From the NCBI GenBank assembly GCA_023665085.1, contig JAMPEQ010000001.1:186001-250000 (forward strand): DNA of 64,000 nt, in the 5' to 3' direction. The notes beneath the pieces were generated by a model that worked only from the letters and a program-made list of their open reading frames with translations, was not told the DNA's origin and did no database searches. Origin of the DNA: Bacteroides sp. (lineage in GTDB: Bacteria; Bacillota; Clostridia; Oscillospirales; Acutalibacteraceae). Shown in pieces: positions 29,972 to 55,168 of this stretch (its first letter is position 1; each line of letters begins with the position of its first letter). Made by a program: the position numbers and the translations under genes.

Positions 29972-30093
29972 ATACCCATAATATAAGAATAATCTAATTT
30001 TATTTGTCTTTAATTCTATTATAATAAGAATATACTAATTATATGCGTGTAATAAATTGTCAAAAATTGGTAAAGTTACCTTGAGGTGATTTT

Positions 30094-30474: not shown

Positions 30475-30509
30475 ATTTGACAAATTTATTTTTATATGGT
30501 ATTTGTATG

Positions 30510-30553
30510 GTATATAAAACATATCAATTTTAATTCGGATATGTTTTATATAC
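30510..30553. terminator. 15-bp inverted repeat before agrA
   Basis: GTATATAAAACATAT pairs perfectly with ATATGTTTTATATAC around a 14-nt loop and is followed by TTTTATTTTTT. It fits an intrinsic terminator for the xre gene, although an operator for agrAC cannot be excluded. Confidence 0.65.
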
Positions 30554-30578
30554 TTTTATTTTTTGAAAGGCAACATTT

Positions 30579-31304: not shown

Positions 31305-31306
31305 CG

Positions 31307-32599
31307 GTGCCTGCTTTAATATTTTTGATTTTTACATATTTTGCTGAGGCTTTAATTGTTTATTCATATGCTAAATCGGTTTATGAAGAAAAAAGAAATA
31401 GTATTATTACATTTGGTGTTATTTTCTTATCGTATGTGGCATTGCTGGTTATTTTTAAATTTCTGTTTAAGAATGAAATTTTCAATATATTTTCTATAAT
31501 TATCGTTAATATACTCAACATTAAATTCCTTTTCAACAGTTCATTTAAATCTGCGGTTTTTCATGGCTCAGCACTTGGAATTTGTCAGCTGCTTTCTGAG
31601 TTTTTTACAGCTTATATATCTGCAATGATTCTGAATATATCAACTCAGGAAAGTGTTAACACTCATTTCGAATTAGGTGCAATATCGAGTATGATGCTTT
31701 ATTTCTTGATTTCTCGCTTGTTATCAAGATTTTCAGTTAAAGAAAATAATTCTCATTCTTGGGGAAAATGGTTTTCATTGTCTTTGCTGCCGATTGGAAG
31801 TTTGTTGGTGCTAATTTCGTTTAGGGTAATAACAAATAGCATTATCCTGACTTCATCAGAAAATACCTTTTTAATAGTTGCTGTTTCATTTTTACTAATC
31901 ATAAATATAATCGTATATTTAATTTATGAACAAGCTGAAAAAAGTAATCAAAAGCTTGTAGAATTAGAATTAATTAATCAAAAAAATGATATTGATATGC
32001 AGTATCTTAATTTGCTTGAAAAGAAAAATGAAACAATGAATGTAATGGCTCATGATTATAAAAATCATATTATGACAATCAGTAATATGTCAGACTCACC
32101 TGAAATTAAAGATTATATAAATAATATGATAGGTGAAATCACTAAATATAATCAAATCGGCAAAACGCAAAACAGATTGCTTGATGTTATTCTGAGCAAA
32201 TATAGAGATATATGCAAAGAAAATGGAATAAAGTTTGAAACGGATATTATGTCAGATAATCTTAAATTTATCAGCAATTATGATTTGTCTGCAATGCTTA
32301 ACAATATTCTTGACAATGCAGTAGAGGCAGCTGTTAAATCAGCAGTTAAGCTCATCCATATAGAAATTGCAAACAGCTTAAGCTCATATCATAAAATAAC
32401 CATAATTAACAGCTGTGATAATGAGCCGAAAAGTAATAAGGATAAACTGATTACTACAAAGCGTGATAAAAACACCCATGGTTTTGGAACAAAGAGTATA
32501 CGAAAAATTGTTAATAAATATGATGGTGAACTGCGGTGGGAGTTTGATAATTCGAGCAGACAATTCAAACTTGTAATCTTATTTCCAAATGAACAATAG
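31307..32599 (+). CDS. agrC: AgrC-like sensor histidine kinase (GHKL type)
   Basis: Membrane receptor for the cyclic peptide. It has 430 residues. The N-terminal 210 residues form six to seven membrane helices, followed by a coiled linker, the phosphoacceptor His249 in MAHDYKNHIMTI, the N-box LNNILDNAVEAA and a G-box with HGFGTKSI. GTG start with GAAAGGAG 6 nt upstream, 2 nt after agrA. This order (agrA then agrC) and the opposite strand from agrDB are unlike the staphylococcal single operon. Confidence 0.92.
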   Translation: MPALIFLIFTYFAEALIVYSYAKSVYEEKRNSIITFGVIFLSYVALLVIFKFLFKNEIFNIFSIIIVNILNIKFLFNSSFKSAVFHGSALGICQLLSEFFTAYISAMILNISTQESVNTHFELGAISSMMLYFLISRLLSRFSVKENNSHSWGKWFSLSLLPIGSLLVLISFRVITNSIILTSSENTFLIVAVSFLLIINIIVYLIYEQAEKSNQKLVELELINQKNDIDMQYLNLLEKKNETMNVMAHDYKNHIMTISNMSDSPEIKDYINNMIGEITKYNQIGKTQNRLLDVILSKYRDICKENGIKFETDIMSDNLKFISNYDLSAMLNNILDNAVEAAVKSAVKLIHIEIANSLSSYHKITIINSCDNEPKSNKDKLITTKRDKNTHGFGTKSIRKIVNKYDGELRWEFDNSSRQFKLVILFPNEQ

Positions 32600-35800: not shown

Positions 35801-38800
35801 CATCAACAGCCATTAACTGTATAAAAAATGGTGAATTTACCGACAGTACGGATTCATGGACTGCAGGATCAAATGCAAGTGTTGTAGAGAATTCTGATAC
35901 TATTGCGACAAATGATTCTAATTGTCTTAAACTTAATGGAATATACACTGATACTAATACAGTTTCTCAAGAAGTTAATCTAAATAATACAAAAGAAAAT
36001 GATAAATATGTTTTCGGTGCTTGGGTAAAAGCAGTAAATGCCCTTCCAATCAAAGAAGGTACTAACAGAGAATTTTCCGTTTCAGTTTATCCAACTTATT
36101 CTGATAATAATATTGTTTCAGAGCCATTAAAAACAATAACATATTCGACTGATAATTCATACTGGCAGTATATTGAAGAAGAGTTAATCTTAAATTCTGA
36201 TTCTGTTAATAATTTTGATAAATTAAACGGTCTTGAAATAAAAATCAACTATAATTATCAAATGGGTTATGCTTTAGTTGATGGTATTTCTTTGTTGAAA
36301 GATGAATTATACAACATCGAATATAAATATGATAAGAACGAGAATATTGAAGATGTTCAGATTGACGGAGAATCTATTTTAACGGATGAGTCAAATAATG
36401 AAAGTTCTGAACAAGAACCATCAGTTACTGAAGAAAACAAAACTGATTCCAATAATACACCAAATGTTACATATGATTATGATGAATATGGCAATTTGAT
36501 AAAAACAGTTTCATCTGCAACAATTAACGATGTAACAGAAAGTCTGTTATCAAAATACACTTACGGAAACAAGGGCTCTTTACTAACATCATCGTTAAAT
36601 CGTGTGGGATACAGTACAAAATACGGCTATGATTATTTTGGAAATGTTGCTGCTGTTTCTGATGCAAATCAATTGTTTGATGAAAAAGGTAATCCGATAA
36701 ACTATAATACAACATACTATCAATATGATAATTTTCAAAATATTTCTTCAATTCTCAATACCTTTGAGCAATATTCAACAGGTAATGATAGTGACGGAAA
36801 CCCTATCTACAAAACTGCAACATTAAATGTAAAATATACATATACTGGCAGCCGTTTGGATAAAATAGAAACTATAAACCTTGATAATACTGATAATTCT
36901 GACAGTGAAAATACTGAAACAGGTGAAATCACAGATGGTTCAAACACTGAAGATGAAGAATCTAACGAGTTCACCGAAACCAGTACAAACAGTATTTATT
37001 CCTTTGAATATGATTCTTGGGGTAATTTAACTAAAATTTTTATTGAGAAATCAAATAAAACTAAAAGCAATGAATCCGTGCCTTATATTCAGTATGAATA
37101 TGATGACAATAATTATCATCAGCTAAACTCTGTTTCATATATAAATGGACAGAAAATTCAATACACCTATGATGAAAACAATAATTTAATTCATCAGAAA
37201 GATTCCAATAATTTAGGTAAAGATTCTTTAGAGTATAGTTATTTTTATCTTGATGACGGCACTTGTTATGCAAAAAAGAATTTGAATTCAGGTGTTGTTG
37301 AAACATACTCAAGCAATACTACAACACTAAGAGATTCAGACGGCAATATTATTCATTCTTACTCATATGATTCTAACGGAAATACAATTGAGCAAGTAGG
37401 AAATAACTCAATTGAAACATATACAAATAGTGAAAACAACGGAACAAATTATATAACTAATATAAATGGCTCTGAAAATGTTCTGTTCTCAAAATATGAT
37501 GAGTTGGGAAGAATTTCAGAAGAGCATTTTTCTGTTGATAGTGCTAACGGTCATATTTCAAGAGAGTATACCTATTATAAAAAGGAAATTAAATCTGATG
37601 GCGAAAATACAACTCTTTATGATGATATAGTTAAAGGAATTGAAAATACATATGGCGAATCTGATACTGAATTCAATTCATCTGAATTGCCAAGATATAT
37701 CACATACTATTATGTTAATTCTGATGAAGAAAAAACAAAGTTGTATGAATATAGGTATACATATCTTCCTAATGAAAACACTTTTACCTATACACTGGTA
37801 AAAGGTGGAGATACTGCAAATGCAGGTCAAACACAAGACGAAGAAGGAATACAGACAAGAATAGTTAACTATAATTCTTCAAATATGGTTTCGTTTGATT
37901 TGAATCTTGATGCTAGCAGATATACTAATGCTAACACAGCGAGTAATTCTTCTGCCGAAGCATCAAAAAAATCATCATTTCTTGAGTCACTTGGAGACTT
38001 TATAATCAGTATAGGCAGTGCCATCGGGCAAGTATTAAATGAAAATACAACTAATTTTGCCTATGATTCAAATGGTAATATTTTGATAGCTGAAAATGGT
38101 TCCAGTGGTCCTGTTTATTTTACTTATGATGAAGCTACTTCCAACTCCAACATCAGTAACTGCTTAACAGGAATTCATTTTGGAGAGAATAATGAAATAT
38201 CAATTTCTTATGATGAAATCGGAAATGTAAACAAAGTTGATCTAAGTAATTCATCTACAATGAACTTTGATGGAATTCTTGATTCAGTTAATTTGAATTG
38301 GTCAAGAGGAAATACTTTAGACAGTATCTATTTGAAAAGCCGAAAATTCTTGGGTGTAACCTCAGCTAATATAAAAGTTCTTGATTATCAATATGATGAT
38401 AATAATTTAAGAACTCACAAAACGATTGATTTAGGAAGTCAATTAAGTTACTTATTTGGTGCTCAGGCAATTGCAAATGCTGAAATTGATTATATTTGGA
38501 ACGGAAATAAACTTGTTGGTGAAAATATAGATTGTTCAGGTTCTATATTTAATGAATTCAGTGGTGATGACCAAATTAACGAAGCAGGCAAATTTAACCT
38601 TGTTATACTTTATGATGATAATGATAATGCCTATGGATTAGTTGTAAATAAAACAGAAGATGCTTATGGTAATGAGATAGCAGACAACAATCCAGAAAAA
38701 ACAAATGTTTATTATTATCTTAAAGATGCTGACAATACAATTACCGGATTAATAGACACTGAAGGAAATTGTGTAGTTTCTTATTCATATAATACATTCG

Positions 38801-39486
38801 GTGCAGCAACTGCTGATCACGCAGAAGGATATAAATATTTAATGCTTATAAATCCATTGGCATATAAGGATTATATCTATGATTATGAAACAGGAATGTA
38901 TTATTTACAGTCAAGATATTATGCCCCATTTGTTGGTAGGTTTATCAGTGCAGATAGTTTATTGGATACAGGCTCAGGAACAGCAATGTGTACTAATGCA
39001 TATGCATATTGTGAAAATGATCCGATTAACAATTCAGATCCTACTGGTATGGCATCAATAAAAAGAGGAACTCTTGCAACATTGTTGGATATAGCATTTG
39101 ATATACTGATACCAGCTGCTGCAGGTTCTGTTGATGTTATAGGAAAATCTCTTAAAACAATTATCGGCGGAACAAAAACATATGCCAAAGTTAGTAAAGT
39201 AATTAATAAATTAAAAACAGGTGTAGTTCCAACAGTAAAAGGAATTTATAGTAAATTTCACACAGCTATAAGAACAGCAATATGGAGGGCAACAGGATAT
39301 ACAATATCCAGTGCGTTAGGAAATTCAATATCCTCTGGATTAAATAAAATTGTTAACTGGATTACAAATTCCAAATTTACAGAACAAGTTGAAATAATAT
39401 TCTGCCTTTTTTCACTTGGAGGGTGGATTGCATTACTAATAGATGCAACTGACGGTAGATTAAATGGAGTTTGTAGATTATGGTAA
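32827..39486 (+). CDS. Giant secreted Rhs/YD-repeat protein with variable C-terminal domain
   Basis: A 2219-residue exported protein. Signal peptide 1-28 (hydrophobic core VFLAVLMVITVIPMG, cleavage near VYA-AE). About 290-480 resembles a DNRLRE-type beta domain; two jelly-roll, carbohydrate-binding-like domains follow at about 850-990 and 1000-1155. YD repeats occupy about 640-850 and 1150-2000. A classic Rhs core (YDYETGMYYLQSRYYAPFVG, then GRFISADS and NDPINNSDPTGM) ends near residue 2078. The last 140 residues differ: hydrophobic, Gly/Ser-rich, ending in a membrane-like segment FCLFSLGGWIALLI. In this family (WapA-like) the tail after DPTG is usually a toxin. No LPxTG anchor is seen. Under agr-type promoter control. 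Confidence 0.9.
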   Translation: MKKTFKRFLSVFLAVLMVITVIPMGVYAAETEETEVIQVSVLEESRDLYSKTYETSEDTNVVISAAVPLHYEEDGELKDIDNTLVKSETDSSILTNNANAYNVELPKKYTDDSEIKVDYDGNSVSFKLINDVKSSKGDIAETEKANVDETNAESVAYAESNMDKLSSSITYENIMPDTDFEYNVQPDALKENIILNKVPDENYNIQYELSVGNLKAVLNDDNSISLFDGDNEVFTIEAPYMIDANDVISENVTVVLEKAENGYVLTYTPNYSWLSSEDTVYPVTIDPTIKITSNNESIEDTFIDNEDIYAVNSSLDYVCVQNLNENDEKIAFFKINSLPDLGLSNSIIDASFNFTIISDVENDYENNNFLSLYTLINSSSENLSNNFIKSLSSYSFNNSNFKLNENVSDIISFYNKSPQQYSFNITNIVNEWNKNKNTPRVLAIKATETTEYVEIAANCYEDYSQIPYITVEYLTNSGINENYTYTSHNLDMAGISYINEFSGENILERTDFSSPSAIGDLTFYFGKNCNTPENKIFGNNASMNYYKTLTIDDNSLDNNANYIITNGDGTTIRLDSNYSVKNSVNENNQKERIVTYTDNDNNSILDVYNAAFVKSNDNSDNDIYVLTKHTIKKENSNENELQNVIINYNPSNYRITSISDDHYSYNFSYSNQKINRITQESLSTYDINSDNNYLSRKIIQDDITSTDATVKPIKQIYSRYSYTNNNLTSVTMGYNSKNFPTKNISYEWDENRITKAIDIFGNCYIYTYNDLDQVVKVQKFNKDNQEGEYLTFEYGINTTIISDGTNTYTEYFDNNGNLLSTIDQNGNAVFNQYENGLITQTSQIRNSSNYVADFYGFESSNDSFISLNSSSKVLDSDVKFNGDKSLKLTAQANKKATFDENISGLDKNTTYTVSMWVNQNSETNSNFELSNDAGITEDFEIIETIGDWQRYSCTLDTEDANSLEISLEINNKGSNSSSVIYLDNAYVQKSTTSTAINCIKNGEFTDSTDSWTAGSNASVVENSDTIATNDSNCLKLNGIYTDTNTVSQEVNLNNTKENDKYVFGAWVKAVNALPIKEGTNREFSVSVYPTYSDNNIVSEPLKTITYSTDNSYWQYIEEELILNSDSVNNFDKLNGLEIKINYNYQMGYALVDGISLLKDELYNIEYKYDKNENIEDVQIDGESILTDESNNESSEQEPSVTEENKTDSNNTPNVTYDYDEYGNLIKTVSSATINDVTESLLSKYTYGNKGSLLTSSLNRVGYSTKYGYDYFGNVAAVSDANQLFDEKGNPINYNTTYYQYDNFQNISSILNTFEQYSTGNDSDGNPIYKTATLNVKYTYTGSRLDKIETINLDNTDNSDSENTETGEITDGSNTEDEESNEFTETSTNSIYSFEYDSWGNLTKIFIEKSNKTKSNESVPYIQYEYDDNNYHQLNSVSYINGQKIQYTYDENNNLIHQKDSNNLGKDSLEYSYFYLDDGTCYAKKNLNSGVVETYSSNTTTLRDSDGNIIHSYSYDSNGNTIEQVGNNSIETYTNSENNGTNYITNINGSENVLFSKYDELGRISEEHFSVDSANGHISREYTYYKKEIKSDGENTTLYDDIVKGIENTYGESDTEFNSSELPRYITYYYVNSDEEKTKLYEYRYTYLPNENTFTYTLVKGGDTANAGQTQDEEGIQTRIVNYNSSNMVSFDLNLDASRYTNANTASNSSAEASKKSSFLESLGDFIISIGSAIGQVLNENTTNFAYDSNGNILIAENGSSGPVYFTYDEATSNSNISNCLTGIHFGENNEISISYDEIGNVNKVDLSNSSTMNFDGILDSVNLNWSRGNTLDSIYLKSRKFLGVTSANIKVLDYQYDDNNLRTHKTIDLGSQLSYLFGAQAIANAEIDYIWNGNKLVGENIDCSGSIFNEFSGDDQINEAGKFNLVILYDDNDNAYGLVVNKTEDAYGNEIADNNPEKTNVYYYLKDADNTITGLIDTEGNCVVSYSYNTFGAATADHAEGYKYLMLINPLAYKDYIYDYETGMYYLQSRYYAPFVGRFISADSLLDTGSGTAMCTNAYAYCENDPINNSDPTGMASIKRGTLATLLDIAFDILIPAAAGSVDVIGKSLKTIIGGTKTYAKVSKVINKLKTGVVPTVKGIYSKFHTAIRTAIWRATGYTISSALGNSISSGLNKIVNWITNSKFTEQVEIIFCLFSLGGWIALLIDATDGRLNGVCRLW

Positions 39487-39681
39487 ATGAAAGAGCAATA
39501 TAAAAATATATTAATTCTTATTGCAGAATTAGGACTTTGCTTTTTTGCAATAGGTAATTGCATAAATCATTGGATAAATCATCCTAATGAAAACTCCATT
39601 GGAACAAGCGTAATTAATTTTATCAGTTATTTTGCTTTGGCAATATTTTTTATAGTAATTTATTTAAAGGATAGAAATTAA
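39487..39681 (+). CDS. Two-TM small protein, candidate immunity factor for the Rhs tail
   Basis: A 64-residue protein that starts directly after the Rhs stop codon (no spacer, probably translationally coupled). Two hydrophobic segments (ILILIAELGLCFFAIGNCI and NFISYFALAIFFIVIYL) suggest a membrane hairpin. In polymorphic Rhs/WapA systems the gene right after the toxin tail encodes the specific immunity protein; a membrane protein fits a membrane-acting tail. Both assignments are inference from position; no family is recognised. Confidence 0.6.
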   Translation: MKEQYKNILILIAELGLCFFAIGNCINHWINHPNENSIGTSVINFISYFALAIFFIVIYLKDRN

Positions 39682-39700
39682 CCTAAAAGGAGTGGTGTTT

Positions 39701-42661
39701 GTGAAAAAATTAATAAGCATTTTATCAGCTATCTGTTTGGTGGTGACAATGATACCGTTTTCAGCATATGCGGCAGACATCACTCCTGAAATTTCTCTTG
39801 AAGAATTTTCAGAACAGTTATCAGAAATGAACGAAGAGTATGCTGATGAACCTGTTTCAAACAGATTGATTGTTAAATCTGAAAGAAAAATTGATAAACT
39901 TGATAGTGTTGATATTGTAGAAGGTTATGATGATTTACATATCGTTCAATTTGACAATTCTGAAAGTGCTGAACAAGCTCTTGAACATTATAATACCATT
40001 AAATATATTGAATACGCCGAAGAAGATATACCAATGTCAACCAGTGAGATGTCAAGTGGTATAACATACGATAATCATTTATCTTGGGGTAGCGAAAGTA
40101 TAGGCGTAGATGATTATGTAGATTATCTTGGTAATGTATCAGCTTTGCCTGAAATAGTTGTTGGTATTATTGATACAGGCATTGATTTAGACCACGAATT
40201 CTTAAAAGATAGAATAATTCCAACAGGAATAAACTATAGTGATAGTGGCACAGAAAGCTCAGAAGATGATGACAATGGACACGGAACACACGTTGCTGGT
40301 ATTATTGCAGACAATACAACAGAAAATGTAAAACTAAAAGCATATAAGTGTATGAATAACACGGGAACAGGAATAAGTTCTAATATTGTCATGTGTTTAC
40401 TGAAAGCAATTGAAGATAAGGTAAATGTTATAAATATGAGTTTAGGGGCAAGGTCAAACAGTGATGTTTATGAAGACATAATCAATAATGCTACACAGCA
40501 AGGAATAGCTGTTTGCGTCTCTGCAGGAAATGATGGCGCTAATGCCGATAATTACATTCCTGCTAATGTTGATTCTGCTATAACAGTAGCAGCAATAGAC
40601 TATAATGATAGTTTTCCATATTGGACTAATTATGGTGACTGTGTCGACATTATTGCCCCTGGCGTATCAATATACAGTTCATATATAGATGGTGAATATA
40701 AGTCCTTAAGTGGTACTTCAATGGCAAGTCCTTTTGTTGCTGCCGCTTGTGCACTAATTAAATCAAAAGATATAAACATATCTGTTGATAAAATAAGTGC
40801 TACATTAGAATCGAATGGTAGGGATTGCTCACCACCCAACAGACTCTCAAACAAGCATGCACTATATATAGGCAACATATCAACATATGATTACGCACGA
40901 ACGCCTGCGCCAACATTCAGCATTGAATCTGGTAGATATGATGATAGGATTACACTTGAGATAAATTGTTCAGACAACGAAGCAGAAATATACTATACCC
41001 TTGATGGTAATAGAGCTTCTCAAAATAATGGTATATTATATACCCAGCCAATTATTGTTGATTGTGTAACGACTATACATGCAGTTTCTTATTCTGCCGG
41101 TAAATTAAAAAGTTTGCAATCAAAAGCAGATTATTATATTACGCACACTGATTCAAATTCTAATTTCATTGTTGATAGCAATGGCACAATTACAAAATAT
41201 TTAGGAAACAGCAAATATTTAACTATACCTGATAATATTTCAGGTATTAGTGTAACAGGTATTGGTGATAATGTTTTTAAAAATTCTGATATAGTAATGA
41301 TAAAGTTTCCTGATACATTAACTTATATCGGAAACAGTGCATTTAGTAATTGTCAAAATCTGATTTCTGTTTATGCAAATAATATTGAAATTGTAGGAAA
41401 TGAAGGATTTTATCACTGTAGAAATTTAGTAGATATTAATTTATCTAATTTGACGAGTGTTGGACAATACGCATTTTTTTCATGTATATTAATACCATAT
41501 GTAAAAAATGATAGAATAAAGATTATTAATGAATATTCTTTTGGAGATTTAAGTAGTGCAGTTAGTGTAAGTTTTACCAATGTAACAACAGTAAAACAAG
41601 GAGGTCTAATGGATGTACAACAAGCTAAATCTATATTTCTTCCCGAATTAGAAACTGTGTATCCACAAGCTTTTGAAGGCTGTTATTCAATCAATGAATT
41701 AAATTTTCAGAAACTTAAAACATTGATTAAGGTTGAAAATGCCGAGTATTTTGGGCACTGTGAAGCTCTTGAATTTTTTTACGCTCCTAATATTACAGGT
41801 GATTTACCAAATTATTCTTTTAGATGCTGTCAAAATTTAAGAAAAATAATACTTAATAATATAACAAACATAGGTAAATATGCATTTGATTTTTGCCAAA
41901 AACTTGAAACAATATATATTTCAAATGTAAAAACTATCGACTTGAATGCTTTCTCACATTGCAAAAACATAAAAATGATTTTTGCACCAAATCTTGAAAA
42001 TACTAAAGTTTTACCTGAATGTAACGGGATAAATATTTATCTTTCAGATAAATTCACCTCAAGCTCTGCAAAAACAACAAATACCTACAATATTATTGCT
42101 CCAAGTGGCTCAAATGCGGAACAATGGGCAAAGGATAATGGTCACACATTTATTCCGAGTGATTATCGGGATACTGCCAATGACAAACTTGATGATACAG
42201 ATGACTTAAATGTCAGAGCATATGGCAGGAGTATAAGAATAACAAATGCAGGATTGCGTTTTGGCTTTTCATGGGATACAATACCTGAAATTCAAGATTT
42301 AGCATCAAATGTTGAATATGGTTTTGTTTATCATTATAACTATGATAATGAGCCTTTCAGTTCTAATAAATTAACTGTTGATAATGTCGGAACAGACAAT
42401 GTCAAAATGAAAAAGGCAGTTAATCTTGATGATACAACTGAAGGTAAAACAGTATTCAATTTGGTGTTTACAAACATTCCTGATTCTAACCAAGATACAA
42501 ATATTTCTGTAAGGGCTTATGTTTGTATTGACGGAATGTATTTCTACTCTAACAGCCTTAATGGCAGCTTTGCAGAGGTATCAAGTAAAGTGCTTGAGGA
42601 TGATGAAATTGATCAATCAACAAAAACCATGGTAAAACAATTATTAAGAAGTGAGGTATAA
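39701..42661 (+). CDS. Secreted subtilisin-like (S8) protease with leucine-rich repeats
   Basis: A 986-residue exported serine protease. Signal peptide ends at AYA-AD; a propeptide-like region spans about 30-110. The catalytic triad is Asp158 (GIIDTGID), His194 (NGHGTHVAG) and Ser340 (SGTSMASP). After it come a chitobiase-like Ig domain (about 405-480: TPAPTFSIESGRYDD), BspA-type LRR_5 repeats (about 490-800: TYIGNSAFSNCQNLI; IGKYAFDFCQKLETI) and a C-terminal beta domain. GTG at 39701 is chosen because AAAAGGAG is 8 nt upstream; two earlier GTGs are too close. It may process the Rhs protein or other surface targets (inference). Confidence 0.92.
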   Translation: MKKLISILSAICLVVTMIPFSAYAADITPEISLEEFSEQLSEMNEEYADEPVSNRLIVKSERKIDKLDSVDIVEGYDDLHIVQFDNSESAEQALEHYNTIKYIEYAEEDIPMSTSEMSSGITYDNHLSWGSESIGVDDYVDYLGNVSALPEIVVGIIDTGIDLDHEFLKDRIIPTGINYSDSGTESSEDDDNGHGTHVAGIIADNTTENVKLKAYKCMNNTGTGISSNIVMCLLKAIEDKVNVINMSLGARSNSDVYEDIINNATQQGIAVCVSAGNDGANADNYIPANVDSAITVAAIDYNDSFPYWTNYGDCVDIIAPGVSIYSSYIDGEYKSLSGTSMASPFVAAACALIKSKDINISVDKISATLESNGRDCSPPNRLSNKHALYIGNISTYDYARTPAPTFSIESGRYDDRITLEINCSDNEAEIYYTLDGNRASQNNGILYTQPIIVDCVTTIHAVSYSAGKLKSLQSKADYYITHTDSNSNFIVDSNGTITKYLGNSKYLTIPDNISGISVTGIGDNVFKNSDIVMIKFPDTLTYIGNSAFSNCQNLISVYANNIEIVGNEGFYHCRNLVDINLSNLTSVGQYAFFSCILIPYVKNDRIKIINEYSFGDLSSAVSVSFTNVTTVKQGGLMDVQQAKSIFLPELETVYPQAFEGCYSINELNFQKLKTLIKVENAEYFGHCEALEFFYAPNITGDLPNYSFRCCQNLRKIILNNITNIGKYAFDFCQKLETIYISNVKTIDLNAFSHCKNIKMIFAPNLENTKVLPECNGINIYLSDKFTSSSAKTTNTYNIIAPSGSNAEQWAKDNGHTFIPSDYRDTANDKLDDTDDLNVRAYGRSIRITNAGLRFGFSWDTIPEIQDLASNVEYGFVYHYNYDNEPFSSNKLTVDNVGTDNVKMKKAVNLDDTTEGKTVFNLVFTNIPDSNQDTNISVRAYVCIDGMYFYSNSLNGSFAEVSSKVLEDDEIDQSTKTMVKQLLRSEV

Positions 42662-43834: not shown

Positions 43835-45571
43835 TTATACAAGGTTCTTATTATTCTCCCATCCCCAAGCAAAACCTTTATATGTTTTAATCCAATCCTC
43901 AATAGGCTCTATTTTTATATAGCCAATATTATGTGCAACCATACCATTACCAATATAAATACCGACATGTCCGTATTGACTTGAAGAATATCCGTAAACT
44001 GTTGCACCAACAGGAATTTTGCTCCAATCAGTAGATATTGCCCACATATCAGCTGCACATAATGCACAATGAGCAGATCCCCTTGAGCCTGTTACAGCTT
44101 GATACACATCTGCTACCCACGCCTGACAGTAACCTGACTTTGCCGAAATACCGTAGCTTGATGAATTTGTAGCAACAGTTACAATTTTCTTTTGCGTTTC
44201 ATTTACAACCTCATCACCAAAATCTAATGTTCCTATATCAATATCAACATTGCTGTTGCCTGTGCTGAATATGATTGATGCCCATAGCTTATCATTACTA
44301 TCGTTCATCAGTTCTGCAAGGTAGGACTTTTGTTTATTATCAAAACAATAAGCCTGTGCCATTTCATCAGCCGTTTTACTGCTAATGGAAATAATCAAAA
44401 CCTTTGTAGTAATTTCATCAGTAGATATAATCTCATTGCCATATTCATCAGTGGTAATGGTTTCTTTCGTTTCTGTTCTTGTTTCAGTCTTTGAATCAAT
44501 ACTGTTCATATCCCAAAAGATATTTGATAGTATTGATTTTTTGTTATCATCAATGGTCGCAATCTCCATAGGGTTATCAGGATCAGATGTCACCTTAACT
44601 GCATATATAGATAGAACATCTTTCCAATTCGCTTTACTGCCGTTAATTTCAACACTGTCATAACTGTCTGATGCTTTTAGCTCATCAATTCTGTTATCAT
44701 AATCAGCGTTGATTTCCTGAATAACGCCTGATATATTCATACCGTTTTCAGATGTTTCAGCAGAGAAAAATATCCCGTAAAAAGAGCTTGCCAAAGCACC
44801 CACAAGGCATAATACAATGATAACAATAACAGCAATCCAACCTCCTGCAATAATGGCAGATACAAGGCTTTTAGCTGCCTTAACAGCACCCTTGATTGCT
44901 TTTATCAAAGCCTTTAAACTGTTCTTTGCAAGTTTAGCAGCCTCTTTTGCAGTTTCTTTCATATACTGTGCTGCTTTTCTTGACCTCTCTGCATTTTTGC
45001 TTATTGCAAGATGATTGACTGCTATGTTATTCTTTGGAGCATTTACAGTCTTAACACCTTTAGCTTTAGAGAAAGTATCGTTAGCAGTCTTGATTGTCTT
45101 GCCTTTGTTTTTAGGTGCAGAATTGTTACCCATACGAATATCATTGCTTGCCGTTTTAGGTGCGTTCTTTACAATCTTTTCAGCTTGCTTTTTGGTTTCA
45201 GTTTCAGCAGTTTTAACAACATTCTGATTTGTCTGTTCTGCTGATTTTGCTTTAGCCTTGCGTTCTGCTCTGCGTGCCTTTATATCCTCAAGAGTAACCT
45301 GTGCATTTTCAATATTCTTTTTTGTTTCAATAATACTCTTTTTGCCCTTCTTGTTGAAATAGTAGGCTGTATCGGTAGCAGTTGAATGAACAGTATCCTG
45401 AAATCTTTGAGCTGCATATTGTTCAGGTGTATCGGAATCAGTGTTAATAGCCTTACCAATATCATCTTTTGTTTTAACACCTGCATCTTTTACCTTTTCA
45501 GTAATTATGCCGACAGTTTCAAGTGTCTTGATATTCTTTTTAGCAACTGTTTTTATATCGGTTTTAGCCAT
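43835..45571 (-). CDS. VirB1-like NlpC/P60 or CHAP cell-wall hydrolase of the transfer system
   Basis: A 578-residue protein. The N-terminal 220 residues are basic and Lys/Ala-rich; one membrane helix lies near residue 240-265 (AIIAGGWIAVIVIIVLCLVG); an extracellular helical region follows. The C-terminal cysteine peptidase-like domain has Cys in SGYCQAWVADVYQ and His in SSQYGHVGIYIGNGM. In Gram-positive conjugation such enzymes open peptidoglycan for the channel. Last gene of the transfer operon. Confidence 0.85.
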   Translation of the reverse strand: MAKTDIKTVAKKNIKTLETVGIITEKVKDAGVKTKDDIGKAINTDSDTPEQYAAQRFQDTVHSTATDTAYYFNKKGKKSIIETKKNIENAQVTLEDIKARRAERKAKAKSAEQTNQNVVKTAETETKKQAEKIVKNAPKTASNDIRMGNNSAPKNKGKTIKTANDTFSKAKGVKTVNAPKNNIAVNHLAISKNAERSRKAAQYMKETAKEAAKLAKNSLKALIKAIKGAVKAAKSLVSAIIAGGWIAVIVIIVLCLVGALASSFYGIFFSAETSENGMNISGVIQEINADYDNRIDELKASDSYDSVEINGSKANWKDVLSIYAVKVTSDPDNPMEIATIDDNKKSILSNIFWDMNSIDSKTETRTETKETITTDEYGNEIISTDEITTKVLIISISSKTADEMAQAYCFDNKQKSYLAELMNDSNDKLWASIIFSTGNSNVDIDIGTLDFGDEVVNETQKKIVTVATNSSSYGISAKSGYCQAWVADVYQAVTGSRGSAHCALCAADMWAISTDWSKIPVGATVYGYSSSQYGHVGIYIGNGMVAHNIGYIKIEPIEDWIKTYKGFAWGWENNKNLV

Positions 45572-46341
45572 TATGATACCTCCTTTAACCTTTCTCTTAA
45601 TGCAGTATAAAATTCCTTTTTATGAATGCTTTTACCTTGAGTCTGCCATTCCTCCTCAAAGTCAAAGCGAACATTTAAAGCCTGAACGGAGTATCCGGGC
45701 TTAAATGTTCGCCAAGTATTTTTGTCCCAAAATTCAAGCTGTTGCCATAATTCAGGAAAATATTTTCGTAGTTTTCTTAATTCATCAAGACTTTGTAAAG
45801 GACAGCACCAACAGGATACACGATGAAATATATTATACAGTCCATCCCAATCAAAACCACGCTCATAGCAATAATTAAGACAATCCTTTTCAGTCATATT
45901 CCATTTCACTAATGGATAGCAGGCATCTTTAACTCTGTGTGGCTCATCAGCAGCAATACCGATGTATTCAATGATTTCAAAATCTTTCTTTAAGTCCTTG
46001 AAATAAGCATCTAATACTCTTTTTTTGAGCATTGCAGTACACCAACGATTACGAGGTCCACCCCAACTCATTCCGTCATACTTTTCTAATTCAGGATTTT
46101 TGCGTTTTGGATGATAAATGAAAAAGTAATATTCAAAATCGTGTTCAGCTTTAATCCTGATAATCGGTCTGCCGATGTATTTTTCTAACTTGTCGATATG
46201 CTCATACATTTGTGGAAATTCCAAGCCTGTGTCACAAAAAATGATGTAGTCAATAGGCTTGCCCTCCTCAATCAATCTTAAAAGCATAGCAGTGGAATCT
46301 TTGCCACCTGATAGGGATACAACATACTTTTTAGGTTTCAT
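45571..46341 (-). CDS. PAPS-reductase/adenine-nucleotide alpha-hydrolase-like protein of ICEs
   Basis: 256 residues with the P-loop SLSGGKDSTAMLLRL at the N-terminus and a C-terminal Cys cluster (HRVSCWCCPLQSLDELR). The family includes sulfate-activating and nucleotide-modifying enzymes; ICE-borne members are common in Clostridia but their role is unclear. A DNA- or tRNA-sulfur modification link is only speculative. It overlaps the sortase gene by 11 bp and the hydrolase gene by one base. Confidence 0.82.
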   Translation of the reverse strand: MKPKKYVVSLSGGKDSTAMLLRLIEEGKPIDYIIFCDTGLEFPQMYEHIDKLEKYIGRPIIRIKAEHDFEYYFFIYHPKRKNPELEKYDGMSWGGPRNRWCTAMLKKRVLDAYFKDLKKDFEIIEYIGIAADEPHRVKDACYPLVKWNMTEKDCLNYCYERGFDWDGLYNIFHRVSCWCCPLQSLDELRKLRKYFPELWQQLEFWDKNTWRTFKPGYSVQALNVRFDFEEEWQTQGKSIHKKEFYTALRERLKEVS

Positions 46342-47185: not shown

Positions 47186-48124
47186 TCAAAATGTTTTCCA
47201 GCATTTTGTTTTTATAAACTCTGCAATTTCGCCATTATCCTTATCTTCATAATATGATACAAGCAGTTTCTTGAATTCAGGTACAAATTCTTCTGATATA
47301 GCAATAAATCCCTGTCCCATTGATATTAAATAGTGGTTAGCAAATATAACTGAAGCCCTTTTGTTCCCATCGTTGAAAATCTGTGTTTTCATACAATAAA
47401 GGCAAAGCTGAATAGCGTTATATATATACTCATTTTTACTGTTAACAATTTTATCAATATCATCTTTGACCTTAAGTTCATTTGGCAATGGTGGAATATA
47501 ACTTGTTCCTCCTATCGTAACAGGAACTCCTCTTATTCTGCCTCCGTCACTGTAAAATCCCTCATTGACGAGTTTAGCAATGTGGCACAAAATATAATAA
47601 TTACTCTCACATTGTATAACATCATTATCAAGAATAAATTCCCAAGCGTGTTTAAGATTTAGAATTTTTTGAACATCGGTTGCGGTAACACCATTAATTT
47701 TACCATTATCAATAATATCTTCAGTTTGTGGAAATGTTGTTGCAACACCCTCTAAAACTGCCTGAGAATATATATTTGATTTCATATTCGCTCTTGCAAA
47801 TTCTAAATTCAAAACAATTTTTTCAGGCAATTCACCGGAAGAAAATCCTAATTCTGCAAGCCTTTTATCAATTTTTCGTATGCTTTTATTAAGTTCTCGC
47901 CTTTCACGATTATTTCTTAATAAAAGTTGGTATAAATCATCAGAATATGCATCAACATAAGTAGATGTTACTCGGCTGCCTATTCTTTTTCTAATATAAA
48001 GATATTTTTTATCATTGATATTTTTTATTTCAGGAGTACCATCATAAGCAAGCAGATTAATTCTTGCCTGAAAATCAGCTTTCTGATTTAAAAGTTCCTG
48101 TATTTCATTAAAATTATTATCCAT
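47186..48124 (-). CDS. Fic-family protein with altered catalytic motif
   Basis: Fic enzymes usually transfer AMP to proteins. The 312-residue protein has a helical N-terminal part (1-110), an inhibitory-helix-like segment YSQAVLEGV near 130 and a Fic core. The Fic motif reads TQIFNDGNKRAS: Phe, Asp, Gly, Asn and Arg are kept, but the catalytic His (HxFx(D/E)GNxR) is Gln. It may therefore be inactive, altered in chemistry or regulatory. It lies between virB4 and sortase genes as an inserted monocistron with its own promoter; AAGGAGG precedes the start. Confidence 0.88.
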   Translation of the reverse strand: MDNNFNEIQELLNQKADFQARINLLAYDGTPEIKNINDKKYLYIRKRIGSRVTSTYVDAYSDDLYQLLLRNNRERRELNKSIRKIDKRLAELGFSSGELPEKIVLNLEFARANMKSNIYSQAVLEGVATTFPQTEDIIDNGKINGVTATDVQKILNLKHAWEFILDNDVIQCESNYYILCHIAKLVNEGFYSDGGRIRGVPVTIGGTSYIPPLPNELKVKDDIDKIVNSKNEYIYNAIQLCLYCMKTQIFNDGNKRASVIFANHYLISMGQGFIAISEEFVPEFKKLLVSYYEDKDNGEIAEFIKTKCWKTF

Positions 48125-50943: not shown

Positions 50944-51780
50944 TTAAATACCCATCATTTCGTGAACAGTTCTGTCTGCCATCTTTACTGTTCCGACAAG
51001 AATTAGCATATTGAATACAAGCTCGCCGATATATTTCCATACCATTGTTACGGCAGCTGCACTTGTATCAACCTGTGGTGGTGATGAAGCGTAGAGAGAA
51101 AAAATTATACAAGCAAGTATGATTACTGCACCCTCAAGCAACACACCACAATATGCTTTAATAAATGACCTTCCTACATTCTGCGTAGGCTCACCTGCAA
51201 AGGTCGATAACGGTATCGGTGCAAGTGCTGTGAACATATATAACTTAAAGAATCTGCCATACACGGTTAATATCAATACAAATGATAAAACCGTTACGAA
51301 CAGACTGCCTATCAAGGTGACTGCCCATAACGGAATACTCTCAAAAAATCCACAGTTTTCAATAGCCGTTACCATTTCATCAGGTAAGGTTGTTTTACTG
51401 CTTGCTCCAAGTCCTGCACTATCCATAATTGTTGAAATAATACCCTGCACAATTTCAAACAGGGCAAGCATTAACTCCATACCATAGGTTACCAATGCTT
51501 TTGCAAGAGCAAAACGCACAAACAGTTTCAAAGCGTGTTCAGGCTTTTTAACCTCGACAAATGACGAACAAGTCTTTACCATTCCTATTACAAAGAATAG
51601 GACAAGAAGGGCAAGACCAATGGCTTGAACAGCGCCATTGATATTGACGATTACATTCCATATTCCGCCACCCTTAAAGTCCTGTGGTGATTGTGTCAGT
51701 AAAGTCCATATCTCTGACAACTTTTCATTCCAAGTGTCAAGTGCATTTTCAAGGTGTTGTACTACCCAATTATCTGACAT
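50944..51780 (-). CDS. TrbL/VirB6-like conjugation channel protein
   Basis: A 278-residue polytopic membrane protein with about six helices (VNINGAVQAIGLALLVLFFVIG, in part; FVTVLSFVLILTVYG; VIILACIIFSLYA). The TAFAGEP-like segment PLSTFAGEPTQNVGRSFIKAY is a conserved feature of the family in Tn1549-type elements. AAAGGAG precedes the ATG. Normally its gene directly follows maff2; here about 3 kb of cargo separate them. Confidence 0.88.
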   Translation of the reverse strand: MSDNWVVQHLENALDTWNEKLSEIWTLLTQSPQDFKGGGIWNVIVNINGAVQAIGLALLVLFFVIGMVKTCSSFVEVKKPEHALKLFVRFALAKALVTYGMELMLALFEIVQGIISTIMDSAGLGASSKTTLPDEMVTAIENCGFFESIPLWAVTLIGSLFVTVLSFVLILTVYGRFFKLYMFTALAPIPLSTFAGEPTQNVGRSFIKAYCGVLLEGAVIILACIIFSLYASSPPQVDTSAAAVTMVWKYIGELVFNMLILVGTVKMADRTVHEMMGI

Positions 51781-51819
51781 TTATTAACTCCTTTCGTAAA
51801 TATTTTAGTATATATTAAA

Positions 51820-51853
51820 AGTCCCAAACGGTGTCGACTTGCCGTTTGGGACT
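51820..51853 (-). terminator. Strong terminator at the end of the uS9 cargo block
   Basis: AGTCCCAAACGG pairs perfectly with CCGTTTGGGACT around a 10-nt loop, and on the minus strand TTTTAATATATA follows. It ends the uS9-fusion transcript 45 nt downstream of its stop and should also reduce read-through into the trbL-like gene. Confidence 0.85.
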
Positions 51854-51897
51854 ATGTATTCTACTAGAATTAAAAAATGTCATACTTTCACTGAACT

Positions 51898-52662
51898 TTA
51901 CCTTTTGGAGTGTTGTGGGGCTTTTCTAGCAGCCTTTAATCCATATTTTTTTCGCTCTTTTATTCTAGAATCTCTTGTTAGATATCCAGCACTTTTAAAT
52001 TCTGCCCTCAAAGCATTATTATATATCAATAATGCTTTAGATATACCAAGTCTAACAGCACTTGCTTGTCCCGCAACTCCACCACCTTTTACATTACAAA
52101 TTATATCGAAATTATTAACATTATTTGATAAAACTAAAGGTTGTTTCACTAGACATTTTAATGAATCCATCGCAAAATAATCATCTATATTTCTGTTATT
52201 AATAATTATTTTACCAGTACCATAGTAAATACGCACTCGGGCAACGGCTTTTTTTCTACGTCCAGTACCATAATAAAATAATGTAGAATTATACGGTAGT
52301 GTCTTGTTTACTTCACTATAAAAATTTTTGATTTCGCTTTTTAAAAAACTATTAGGTATTTTATATGATTTGAAAAAACAACATATTTTATCAGAAGTAC
52401 CAAAAATCATATCATTTTCTTTTGGTTGGAATGCATAAATTGGTTTGGAGCCCAAAGAAATTTGTATTACAGAATTTTCAATATTGTTCAAAGGAATAAT
52501 TTTGTCATTAATATCGTCCAAAATTTCAGTAAATTCATAAATTTCATCATTATCACCATTTTGGAAATAAAAAGTATTATTATATTCAAATACAGGATAT
52601 GTAAAATCAGGAATTATATTAAACACATTTAAAAAACCGATTAGTTTGTATTCTTTTTTCAT
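51898..52662 (-). CDS. Ribosomal protein uS9 fused to an unknown N-terminal domain
   Basis: 254 residues. Residues about 129-254 are a full-length bacterial uS9: YYGTGRRKKAVARVRI, VKGGGVAGQASAVRLGISKALL, TRDSRIKERKKYGLKAARKA and the terminal SKR, which in the ribosome reaches the P-site tRNA anticodon (known for bacterial uS9). Residues 1-128 are an unrecognised aromatic- and Asn-rich domain (YPVFEYNNTFYFQNGDNDEI). It is not the housekeeping rpsI, which follows rplM and has no such extension. The start overlaps the stop of the 255-aa gene by 4 bp (ATGA), so both are translated together. It could sit on ribosomes with its extra domain outside, or act as a decoy (inference). Confidence 0.93.
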   Translation of the reverse strand: MKKEYKLIGFLNVFNIIPDFTYPVFEYNNTFYFQNGDNDEIYEFTEILDDINDKIIPLNNIENSVIQISLGSKPIYAFQPKENDMIFGTSDKICCFFKSYKIPNSFLKSEIKNFYSEVNKTLPYNSTLFYYGTGRRKKAVARVRIYYGTGKIIINNRNIDDYFAMDSLKCLVKQPLVLSNNVNNFDIICNVKGGGVAGQASAVRLGISKALLIYNNALRAEFKSAGYLTRDSRIKERKKYGLKAARKAPQHSKR

Positions 52663-53423
52663 TTAATATATCCCTCCTCTTTAAAATATTCTATAACTTT
52701 CTGAAATATAACTTCATTATACCTATTAGGTGGACAGAGTCTTCTTGTTTCATATGTTTTGCATTTAGCAACAGTATTTTTTAACCATTCATTTACTGTA
52801 TCATTTTTTAATAGACTATCTGGCAAAATAACACACTTAACAATATCACTCAAAACATATGATTCATCAGATATTATTTCTATAGTATTTGCTCTTTCAT
52901 CGTATTCTTCAACATTATCAGATTTTAATAAATCGAATAAAGATGTTAGCTCTGGTTTTTGATGAGGTGGCAATTTATCAAAAATTTCACCGAACATATA
53001 GTTTTTATTTGAGCCATAGACAACAGAAATATATTTCAGTATACCATTCTTATCATCAATAAGATAATGTTCAATTTGTGTTTTACGGTGTATATATCTC
53101 TCATAACGTTTGCTCATAAAAGCTCCAGAATCAAATGGAAAAATTTTTTTAGGCTTTATTTTTTCGACATCTATTATAAAACAAACAGGATTAAAAGAAG
53201 ATGATGCCGTATTGATCTTGATTTTTTCAGTTGGTGGATAAGATGGTTTTCCATAAAAAAAATATAAAAGGTTCTCATTGAATACTGGACATAATTGAGT
53301 TTTTAATTTATCATCACTTATAATTAAATAAGCTTCATATCCACCACAGGAGTGTATCAATGGTAATAATCTATCGTCTGTATATACAAAATTACGAGTA
53401 ATATAATCATATAATACACTCAT
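52659..53423 (-). CDS. Unrecognised 255-aa partner of the uS9 fusion
   Basis: I do not recognise the family. No signal peptide or membrane helix. Distinct segments: CGGYEAYLIISDD near the N-terminus, LLYFFYGKPSYPP near 60, VCFIIDVEKIKPKKIFPFDSGAF near 110 (cited as IFPFDSGAF), RYERYIHRKTQIEHYL, and a C-terminal helix. The pattern aromatic-YGxPxY followed by FPFDSGA looks like conserved motifs of an enzyme, but no mechanism can be named. ATG at 53423 is preferred (AGGGGG 8 nt upstream) over a GTG at 53432. It is the first gene of the two-gene cargo operon. Confidence 0.8.
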   Translation of the reverse strand: MSVLYDYITRNFVYTDDRLLPLIHSCGGYEAYLIISDDKLKTQLCPVFNENLLYFFYGKPSYPPTEKIKINTASSSFNPVCFIIDVEKIKPKKIFPFDSGAFMSKRYERYIHRKTQIEHYLIDDKNGILKYISVVYGSNKNYMFGEIFDKLPPHQKPELTSLFDLLKSDNVEEYDERANTIEIISDESYVLSDIVKCVILPDSLLKNDTVNEWLKNTVAKCKTYETRRLCPPNRYNEVIFQKVIEYFKEEGYIK

Positions 53424-53432
53424 ATTATCCAC

Positions 53433-53736
53433 CCCCTAGTAAATCAACATTGAATAATATCTAATATTGAAATGATTTTCAAGCAAATTCAAACAATTCC
53501 AATAGCAGAATTACTAATTAGATGAAATTGCTCTTTTCAGTAAATCCTATATCATATTAAATCAACAAATATAGCTTGTCAACAATCATCGTAAAAATCT
53601 ACATAATTAACAAAAATATACAAGCATTTTTGTTATATTTTACAAATTATAATTTTTATAATGTATTGACTTTTTAATATTAAAATATTATATTATAAAT
53701 AAATATAATACTAATCAGATTGGATAAAATAATTTT
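53433..53736. promoter_or_regulatory. Divergent promoter region of the uS9 cargo block
   Basis: About 300 nt of very A/T-rich DNA. Minus-strand promoter: TTGACA (53577-53582), 17-nt spacer, TAATAT (53554-53559), leaving a leader of about 125 nt. Plus-strand promoter: TTGACT (53666-53671), 17-nt spacer, TATATT (53689-53694), for the HTH gene. The two promoters point away from each other, so the HTH protein may control both (inference). No clear palindrome is obvious. Confidence 0.65.
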
Positions 53737-54747
53737 ATGAATGAGATGAACAAAAAATTTGTTACTTCCGAAGTATTTTACGAACGAATAATGAATATAA
53801 TGGAGTGCAAAGGAATAAGTATCGACGAACTTTATAATATAATAAATAACGAAGTTGGATATTGTATAAATAAAAATAACTTAAATATATATTTCCAAAG
53901 AGTACCTAGTGTTAATTTTTTAGTAGCATTAAGTAAGTCTTTAAATGTATCAACAGATTATTTATTAGGTCTAGAAGATTTTAATTACTATTCGTCTGGA
54001 TTTGATTATAACTATAATAATAAAAGATATAAAAAATATATAAATAATTATTATTTTTATTTCTTTCCAACAGTTTCAAATTCTCCAAAAAAAATAATGA
54101 AAGCAGAATTATCTATTGTATTCGATGTTGACTATTTTGTTACATTGAAAATAAAAACCGATGAAAATGATAATAAAGAATATTCTGGGAAATTACTTTT
54201 ATCTAAAGATTATCCTATTGGATATATCTCTTTAAAAGGTCAAAGAATTGGGGAAATAGTTCACTTATCATTTTTTGATCCAAGTATTAATGGAAATGCT
54301 GTTACCATAACTACCATTTTAGGTGCAATGATTTCAATATCAAGTGGAGATTCAAAACGAGCACCCGTAATGTCACGATTTTTCATCTCCAAAGAAGATG
54401 TCTCAGAATCTGATTATGACATAATCAAATCTCATCTTTATCTAAATAGCAAATTTATTAATATTAGTTCTGAATTAATTGAAGTATCATTGTCTACCAT
54501 TGATATTGACGATAGTCAAAAAACAAAAATATTATCAAGACTTACATCTGCTTTTGAAGAAAAAAAGTATTTTAAAATTGAAGAAAGCTATTTATTAAAC
54601 ACTTTAAAAAATGATTGCAATTTGTCATCGATTCAAGTCGAGCAAATCATTTCACAATTAAGATTAAATTCAGAAGTAGATGCCAATATAAAAATCAATA
54701 AATCTTTAGATAGTAGATTATTCAATTATTTATCTCATAAAAATTAA
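53737..54747 (+). CDS. HTH protein with a large C-terminal sensor-like domain
   Basis: 336 residues. The N-terminal 80 residues form an XRE-like helix-turn-helix (IMECKGISIDELYNIINNEV; VPSVNFLVALSKSLNVSTDYLLGLEDF is the helix-turn-helix end, cited by LNVSTDYLLGLEDF). The remaining 250 residues form an unrecognised, beta-rich then helical domain (ELSIVFDVDYFVTLKIK; MISISSGDSKRAPVMSRFFIS). Weak ribosome-binding site (GGAT). It is divergent from the uS9 operon and followed by its own terminator. A ligand- or peptide-sensing regulator of the block is the simplest reading. Confidence 0.8.
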   Translation: MNEMNKKFVTSEVFYERIMNIMECKGISIDELYNIINNEVGYCINKNNLNIYFQRVPSVNFLVALSKSLNVSTDYLLGLEDFNYYSSGFDYNYNNKRYKKYINNYYFYFFPTVSNSPKKIMKAELSIVFDVDYFVTLKIKTDENDNKEYSGKLLLSKDYPIGYISLKGQRIGEIVHLSFFDPSINGNAVTITTILGAMISISSGDSKRAPVMSRFFISKEDVSESDYDIIKSHLYLNSKFINISSELIEVSLSTIDIDDSQKTKILSRLTSAFEEKKYFKIEESYLLNTLKNDCNLSSIQVEQIISQLRLNSEVDANIKINKSLDSRLFNYLSHKN

Positions 54748-54795
54748 TATAAAAGATTTCTATTAAAATCATCATCAAACAAAGAAACTATGTAT

Positions 54796-54826
54796 AATCC
54801 AGAGGAGATTAACCTCTGGATTTTTA
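54796..54826 (+). terminator. Terminator of the HTH sensor gene
   Basis: AATCCAGAGG pairs with CCTCTGGATT around a 7-nt loop, then TTTAATTTT. It closes the cargo block on its right side. Confidence 0.85.
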
Positions 54827-54829
54827 ATT

Positions 54830-55168
54830 TTACCCAATAATCAAATCAAGGATTTCTTTTGCAAAGGTGATAACAATACCACCTGCAAGGGTGAGAAAGC
54901 CGTTGGCTCTCTGTGACGGATCGTGTGATTGGAATGATAATCCGACCTGCACAATACCCCAGCCGAGAATTATCATACCAACGGCACGGATAATACCGAA
55001 AATGAAGGTTGAAAGATTATTGATTACAGCGAGAGGATCACCTGCAGCATAAGCAGTTACCCCAAAGCAAAAGCAGAATACTACTGTTAAACATACAGCA
55101 AGTATTCTGCTTAATTTTTTACCCCTTTTGTTCTCCAAAGGTGATTTGTTTTTATTCAGTTTTGTCAT
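54830..55168 (-). CDS. Maff2-family conjugation membrane protein
   Basis: 112 residues, with a signal-like N-terminal helix ending VTAYAAG and two hydrophobic segments (FIFGIIRAVGMIILGWGI; GGIVITFAKEILDLII). It resembles VirB2-like small membrane proteins placed between the coupling protein and TrbL in Tn1549-like elements. Overlaps the coupling-protein gene by 4 bp. Confidence 0.88.
   Translation of the reverse strand: MTKLNKNKSPLENKRGKKLSRILAVCLTVVFCFCFGVTAYAAGDPLAVINNLSTFIFGIIRAVGMIILGWGIVQVGLSFQSHDPSQRANGFLTLAGGIVITFAKEILDLIIG

Follow-up and report, generated by a model that had tools for sequence, protein, structure and literature searches.

Organization of the A-B locus

The window analysed here is the whole 64,000-nucleotide stretch of contig JAMPEQ010000001.1 (positions 186,001 to 250,000), and its subject is a pair of overlapping genes, here called A and B, in which an effector with a predicted ADP-ribosyltransferase (ART) fold is followed by a protein that joins a constant N-terminal domain (N-domain) to a complete ribosomal protein uS9. 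The feature had been pointed out in a preliminary description of this DNA, and the uS9 fusion and its partner gene were confirmed as real. The genes and signals are arranged as follows (aa, amino acids; HTH, helix-turn-helix).

52659..53423, minus strand: gene A, 254 aa, effector with a predicted ART fold, DarT-like
51898..52662, minus strand: gene B, 254 aa, constant N-domain fused to a complete uS9
52279..52662, minus strand: B residues 1-128, the constant N-domain common to B proteins
51901..52278, minus strand: B residues 129-254, full-length uS9 including the SKR tail
52659..52662, minus strand: ATGA overlap of the A stop and the B start, probable translational coupling
51820..51853, no strand given: terminator-like 14-pair hairpin downstream of B
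53737..54747, plus strand: 336-aa HTH-like gene, divergent, in the same slot here and not conserved with the A-B pair

Residues 129-254 of B had been read as uS9 with an SKR end behind an extra N-terminal domain, and family models bear this out: residues 134-254 match the whole Pfam model PF00380 (1.2e-43), and B scores above the curated cut-off of the bacterial S9 equivalog, which places it among bacterial uS9 proteins. The ATGA overlap through which co-translation with the partner gene had been proposed is present at 52659..52662, and translation of A and B is most likely coupled there; an effector gene first and its partner next, with a short overlap, is also the order found in DarTG. The pair is carried by a conjugative element: genes for a relaxase, a coupling protein and a TraG-like ATPase surround it, and a tyrosine recombinase is encoded at a distance of 25 kb, in agreement with the earlier view of an accessory uS9 on a mobile element.

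Gene A encodes a predicted ADP-ribosyltransferase

The partner, first described as unknown, has a fold that can be recognized in a model. In the predicted structure of A (pLDDT, predicted local distance difference test, 94), fold matches were led by DarT, followed by Tpt1, SopF, CteC and OspC3, in both Foldseek and VIA; no Foldseek match was obtained at E 0.001. Judged from this model, A almost certainly has an ART fold, and NAD+-dependent transferase activity is predicted. H24, C45, Y54, P96, F97, D98, G100, D175, R177 and E182 are invariant in alignment A4, from which L034 (in-frame stop), L070, L087, L090 and the short L005 were excluded (alignment A3 excluded L087 and L090). Across the 78 aligned A members, the invariant H24, Y54 and E182 may correspond to an H-Y-E type set; motif residues of this kind have established roles in ARTs.

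None of the libraries searched (Pfam, curated family models, PADLOC-DB, PHROGs) gives A a name. It matched 0 Pfam families, including the DarT profile PF14487, unlike the true DarT encoded at locus L040, and hhalign matched alignment A4 to that DarT over only 22 columns. For the 78 A proteins, PADLOC-DB 2.0.0 (2023) gave no significant match and a single weak one (0.022) in one member, and PHROGs v4 gave 0 families at 1e-3; a PDB sequence search with the A profile gave 0 matches at E 5. Phage records yielded no A relative with L006 as the query, the window A itself not having been searched there, and a viral-contig scan with B alone as the query gave nothing useful.

The pair differs from DarTG in that A matches no DarT sequence profile, and in that window B lacks a macro domain (Ribosomal_S9 is its sole Pfam match at E up to 1) and is not a macro or NADAR partner; moreover, unlike DarG, B has its second half swapped for unrelated proteins. 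By analogy with Type II toxin-antitoxin systems, A is a putative toxin that would be toxic alone and neutralised by B. The effector fold and the gene order are of a known kind, that of ART toxin-antitoxin pairs, and what is new is the exchangeable tails.

Pairing of A with the N-domain

A scan of one genome per species, in which 102 stretches matched the search pattern, yielded 79 loci with A, and a viral-contig scan (23 matching stretches) yielded 3. For 75 of the 82 loci a B gene could be called, at a distance of -56 to +53 bases relative to the A stop. The two genes overlap by four bases in 25 of the 75 called pairs, and B lengths are 238 to 1134 aa, each start being that of the longest frame chosen by script. 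Relatives of A also occur on 12 PLSDB plasmid records; at six annotated plasmid loci of the seven inspected, A is followed by a gene for a hypothetical protein whose length varies, and at the seventh (L006) a comparable open reading frame (ORF) stands in this place.

Profiles built without the tested group found the N-domain in 80 of 83 B proteins (the 75 above, that of the window and those of the seven plasmid loci), with L053, L056 and L072 missed when group 0 was held out, and gave no match (E up to 10) among the 3953 remaining ORFs at these loci. The window N-domain was recovered at 2.7e-16 by a profile built without any uS9 member. An unbiased test of the pairing was provided by a profile search with the N-domain, as the preliminary description had suggested: among 385 other genomes, sampled from an alphaproteobacterial class, A occurs in 7 and the N-domain in the same 7, adjoining A in every case; these 7 include the L075 genome, which served as the centre of the sampling. 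From these sequence comparisons, A and B can be regarded with near certainty as one module with a constant N-domain. Close to the window genome A is rare, being found in 2 of the 300 family genomes and in 2 of the 391 class genomes (the window genome included in both, and one copy broken). The model of the N-domain predicts a beta-rich part followed by helices at 90-99 and 105-119; the match lists of fold searches with whole B were taken up by uS9 chains.

The seven loci without a usable B call (L032, L036, L049, L059, L065, L066, L069) were left out of these counts. The N-domain was later found at L036, where the A frame looks broken, and was not found at L032, L049, L059, L065, L066 and L069 (E up to 0.01); L049, L066 and L069 end near A, but L032, L059 and L065 do not. 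At L032:5629-6807, A has a long N-terminal extension that to the eye resembles pentapeptide repeats, with no N-domain found nearby, and the input is perhaps fused to A itself. The N-domain was also not found beside an A remnant on a Paraburkholderia plasmid (L146:4001-4450), where annotated CBASS genes nearby give a hint of a defence island.

Exchangeable C-terminal tails

The tails, taken as the residues of B after 125 and grouped by BLAST, form 35 groups, which is a low count in that the L075 Rel tail was joined to group 0 through shared middle residues; the three largest contain 15, 9 and 8 loci. A named Pfam domain was found in a minority of the 81 B members scanned, and the FGE and TPR matches and one cold-shock match come from a tally over these 81. 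The named tails are listed below.

uS9: window, L010, L011, L012
Rel: L075, with a second in L150
Cold-shock protein (CspA): L058
DrmD/RapA-like SNF2 helicase: L018
BREX-2 PglX: L152, model positions 5-411, beyond which the reading frame breaks off
DarG C-terminal domain: L040
SF1/UvrD-like helicase: L153
Fatty acyl-AMP ligase (FAAL): L083
FecR: L068
FGE-sulfatase domain: L091, assigned from the sequence and related NCBIfam matches
RES: L022
TPR: L067, assigned from the sequence

In addition, group 2 (8 members) is FtsZ-like by profile, 25 of the 29 listed PDB matches being FtsZ (E up to 5; best 1.1e-4); L148 was placed with this group by eye, and the GGGTGTG motif is absent from its eight FtsZ-like members. 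PDB searches of tail groups A9 and A11 gave best E values of 0.48 and 0.28. The great diversity of the tails might be expected if a cassette of A and the N-domain landed upstream of genes and picked up functionless in-frame tails by chance. Several named tails are, however, full-length proteins or full domains (uS9, the L075 Rel, FAAL), tails recur as families in 15, 9 and 8 loci, and conservation is higher in the uS9 part than in the N-domain, all of which make chance fusion very improbable.

Motif residues of Rel and FtsZ have known roles. The L075 Rel tail is 62.4% identical to the host Rel over 742 positions, and stretches that we take to be catalytic are altered in it (HDTIEDT to HGGSAET, KLADRLHNM to KLAARLHEM, YFTHPLE to RQSSPAA, and QLSDIFGFRV to QLTH-YAFRI); YRSIHT and ELQIRT are essentially kept. 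At L150, where A differs, the Rel-type tail has HD_4 and TGS, and RelA_SpoT was not found in it at 0.01; in a comparison with the Rel of the L075 host only, KLADRLHNM is preserved and the synthetase stretches have mostly disappeared. The tails with FAAL and PglX score above curated cut-offs. Two neighbouring genes may be mentioned here: a ParB-like gene (PF02195; L150:3986-5710) lies upstream of the second Rel-tailed pair, and a DUF4231/SLATT-like gene (PF14015, 2.5e-8; L058:462-1049), of a type named for SMODS/SLOG conflict systems, lies upstream of the cold-shock-tailed pair.

A good number of the named tails belong to nucleic-acid machinery (uS9, Rel, CspA, SNF2, PglX, SF1 helicase), as would suit a model in which the ART is led to its substrate by the C-terminus of B. 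With the uS9 tail, A would be docked on the 30S subunit and would modify rRNA, mRNA, tRNA or a ribosomal protein; with the PglX and DrmD-like tails it would be led to DNA, and with the FtsZ tail to the divisome. Pure delivery of an enzyme gives no reason, however, for Rel copies with spoiled catalytic motifs, although binding alone could suffice, and the periplasmic FecR domain of L068 and the DarT-binding DarG domain of L040 are signal-receiving or binding parts rather than obvious cytosolic addresses for an ART. Such delivery is considered unlikely.

The L068 and L040 loci

The gene order at L068 is A, then a B gene encoding the N-domain, a transmembrane segment and FecR, and then a TonB-dependent receptor. 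The transmembrane segment (residues 130-148) is the only one among the 83 B proteins at the hydropathy threshold used; a histidine-biosynthesis gene lies upstream of A, with no sigma factor between, and a receptor signalling domain was not called by Pfam. In the FecI-FecR-FecA system (PMC9249621), the N-proximal part of FecR is cytoplasmic and binds the sigma factor, residues 85-100 span the membrane, and the C-proximal part takes the signal of the receptor in the periplasm. L068 matches this sigma-regulator-receptor layout, with A in the position of the sigma factor and the N-domain in the cytosolic position of FecR, although it is an ART-fold protein, not a sigma factor, that forms the output. 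The layout thus argues for the N-domain as a regulator of A and for the tail as an input.

At L040, darT (PF14487, 1.9e-56) and a macro gene (PF01661, 5.6e-27) are followed by A and by the N-domain fused to a DarG part, and the pair thus stands inside a darTG operon. The tail matches the DarG part in the DarTG complex structure 7yk3 (5.7e-27) and, to judge from this match, can probably feel DarT.

The presence of defence-system parts among the tails (DarG by darT and the macro gene; PglX; and the DrmD-like helicase of L018, which sits two genes after a DUF1156 antiphage-like gene), together with the location of the window copy on a conjugative element, would also suit an addiction model, in which A is a toxin and the N-domain an antitoxin fused to a protein whose loss or inactivation is punished, thereby guarding defence genes or the element itself rather than the cell. 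A functional logic of this kind is reported for CreTA and CRISPR-Cas (PMC9458426). The hosts checked, however, already encode a uS9 (G000 and those of L010 and L011) or a Rel (the L075 host) of their own, so that housekeeping copies need no guarding, and dead Rel copies are not worth keeping as cargo; addiction is accordingly regarded as improbable.

The uS9 branch

B is not the chromosomal rpsI: it has 254 aa with the extra N-domain, and the genome contains a second, ordinary uS9, encoded by rpsI on another contig. In a class sample of 60 genomes (the window genome included; 56 with a match), no uS9 frame besides that of the window genome is as long as 254 aa, the others having 45-202 aa. That the N-domain might be an ordinary extension of rpsI in this lineage, a possibility raised earlier, was therefore rejected. 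Fusion through integration of an element at rpsI, to judge by its name the target of the streptococcal IMESag-rpsI (PMC5090054), was also rejected, because rpsI is on another contig and the fusion consists of a whole uS9 and a domain found elsewhere. Loss of the normal rpsI in the L012 genome, where the fusion was the sole uS9 detected, was set aside, since the contig stops right after rplM and an assembly gap is likely.

Of 52 positions that are invariant in 24 chromosomal uS9 proteins, 47 are kept in the window copy, 52 in L010, 50 in L011 and 52 in L012. Identity between the window and the other three loci is 58-61% in uS9 and 34-36% in the N-domain, and dN/dS of these loci is largely saturated. 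In the uS9 gene tree, for which 24 of 33 chromosomal loci were used (the script missed the start motif in the rest), the window copy lies on a long branch, and placing the four uS9-tailed B proteins in one clade is 9.36 log-likelihood units worse and not rejected (p-AU, approximately unbiased test, 0.102), so that the tree is compatible with a single capture of the tail as well as with several. The corresponding A proteins group together in the A tree (FastTree), with L013, a locus whose tail is different, placed within the group or beside it; this Lachnospiraceae locus (L013:6699-7706) is the closest non-uS9 relative of the window pair and has the same N-domain and a ~210-residue unrecognised tail. 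Because the uS9 loci were found through A, their shared A proves nothing by itself, and the predicted co-occurrence of the partner with extended uS9, which was observed at L010, L011 and L012, is a biased test. The HTH gene, which had been taken as part of the system, is absent from all three of these loci and has no relative among 151 loci, and was rejected as a regulator of A and B.

A complete uS9 with its SKR tail, 47-52 of the 52 invariant positions kept in the four copies, and stronger conservation than in the N-domain would be consistent with replacement of the host uS9 by B in a share of ribosomes, A being a processing or modifying partner in the control of translation. Mitochondrial uS9 proteins, according to the chain numbering of fold matches, have ~150-300 residues ahead of the uS9 fold, so that B could enter ribosomes, a point which likewise favours delivery of A to the 30S subunit. 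Replacement would account, however, for no more than four loci, and most of the other named tails in the family are not ribosomal proteins; the odds are strongly against it. The earlier picture of a uS9-centred ribosome system holds in so far as a uS9 swap is possible, but nothing requires one; as uS9 is one of many C-termini on a constant N-domain, it is not what defines the system.

A proposed two-gene alarm with interchangeable inputs

The predicted fold, the pairing, the modularity, the tail identities and the cargo slot were read from sequences and models; inhibition, trigger, target and defence are inferred. It is proposed, with a probability of roughly 50%, that A and B form a two-gene alarm with swappable input domains. 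The N-domain would bind A and hold it back, and the C-terminus would be the sensor, often a bait resembling a cell or defence protein that is attacked by phages or rival elements. Binding, modification, sequestration or destruction of the bait would free A to ADP-ribosylate a target with NAD+, and growth or phage replication would stop. In the window, the bait would be uS9, whose tail may dock on or mimic its ribosomal place, or may meet factors acting on uS9, and the trigger would be something acting on uS9 or the 30S head, or a change in the state of the ribosome. Regulation of A by the N-domain is likely, and the C-terminus is rather more probably the input than not. A role in conflict or defence, already the best guess of the preliminary description, is kept as the favoured one, with somewhat better than even chances, whereas sensing of an attack on the ribosome by the uS9 form is suggested tentatively, at just under even chances. 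Phage proteins act on host ribosomes early in infection, and the protein in the case studied binds the 50S subunit and not uS9 (PMC10914614).

Several observations weigh against the alarm in its simplest form. Six of the 82 loci, three of them not ending near A, are without a detectable N-domain, contrary to strict pairing, and the nearly intact uS9 copies and the FAAL and PglX tails above curated cut-offs are contrary to the idea that a decoy is a dead copy. Dead copies of host proteins would look like decoys; a bait may, however, need its intact form to be attacked, and a dead enzyme may merely avoid harm. The delivery and addiction models therefore keep some probability.

A broader version of the alarm, which we put forward with some doubt, is that one ART and one regulator domain have been fused repeatedly to relatives of attacked proteins (uS9, Rel, FtsZ, CspA) or to defence parts (DarG, PglX, the DrmD-like helicase), generating an integrated-decoy alarm carried by bacteria and mobile elements. 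If this is true, the tails together would chart, from genomes, the targets of phages and rival elements, and they would point to a new class of attack on uS9 or the 30S head in Clostridia. Effector-triggered, decoy-based immunity, as in plants, would be extended to a mobile bacterial system, through which attacks on uS9 could be tested for directly. Bacterial immune sensors are usually discovered trigger by trigger; in a family that combines a single effector and a single regulator domain with dozens of tails, the triggers could be read from sequence, each tail indicating a host or defence component that is worth an attack. To our knowledge, the decoy principle, if right, would be new for bacteria, and no prior description of the A-B module was found in the titles and abstract openings of open-licence PMC literature.

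Plant NLR receptors with integrated decoys have a constant immune core and exchangeable host-protein baits. The A-B module likewise combines a constant core with exchangeable host-protein domains, but its proteins are unrelated to these receptors, it is a bacterial two-gene unit, and its bait function is a proposal made here. Avs and similar antiphage systems have a shared core and variable sensors; modular swapping of sensors is common to both, but no STAND NTPase was found here, and several of the sensors resemble host or defence proteins. In CapRel, a fused toxin-antitoxin, a growth-stopping effector is held by a regulator that senses a phage protein, and CapRel-Ebc is reported to be activated jointly by a phage protein and host FtsZ (PMC13423816). 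The present system differs in having two genes and an ART-fold effector, and in that the host-like protein is fused into the regulator and not sensed in trans.

The cargo slot and neighbouring genes

The pair and the divergent HTH gene occupy the following interval of the conjugative element.

51781..54829, no strand given: cargo slot between the VirB6-like (50944-51780) and VirB2-like pilin (54830-55168) genes

The VirB6-like and pilin-like names are based on matches below the Pfam cut-off. These two genes are side by side in many relatives of the family: in the family search of 300 genomes, counted by hand, flank matches end 51-117 bp apart in at least 15 genomes (G016, G018, G032, G084, G106, G135, G146, G158, G185, G217, G234, G239, G261, G282, G289) and lie 0.57-1.55 kb apart in at least four more (G029, G080, G149, G292), both counts being lower bounds. 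Because the flanks adjoin in relatives, A, B and the HTH gene are regarded as cargo in a slot that is used for other cargo elsewhere. In relatives the slot contains a 346-aa unknown gene on the opposite strand (L174), a pair of 319 aa and 128 aa (L175), or an MT-A70 methyltransferase (L176; PF05063, 4.6e-29).

Elsewhere in the same element, three proteins are encoded downstream of the transfer genes: one of Fic/DOC type (47186-48124; PF02661), one that is PAPS-reductase-like (45571-46341; PF01507), and one of 578 aa that was not recognised (43835-45571). At positions 29129-32599 of the window, a stretch resembles an Agr-type signalling operon by eye, and beside it (32827-42661) lie genes for very large putative surface proteins of 2219 and 989 aa.

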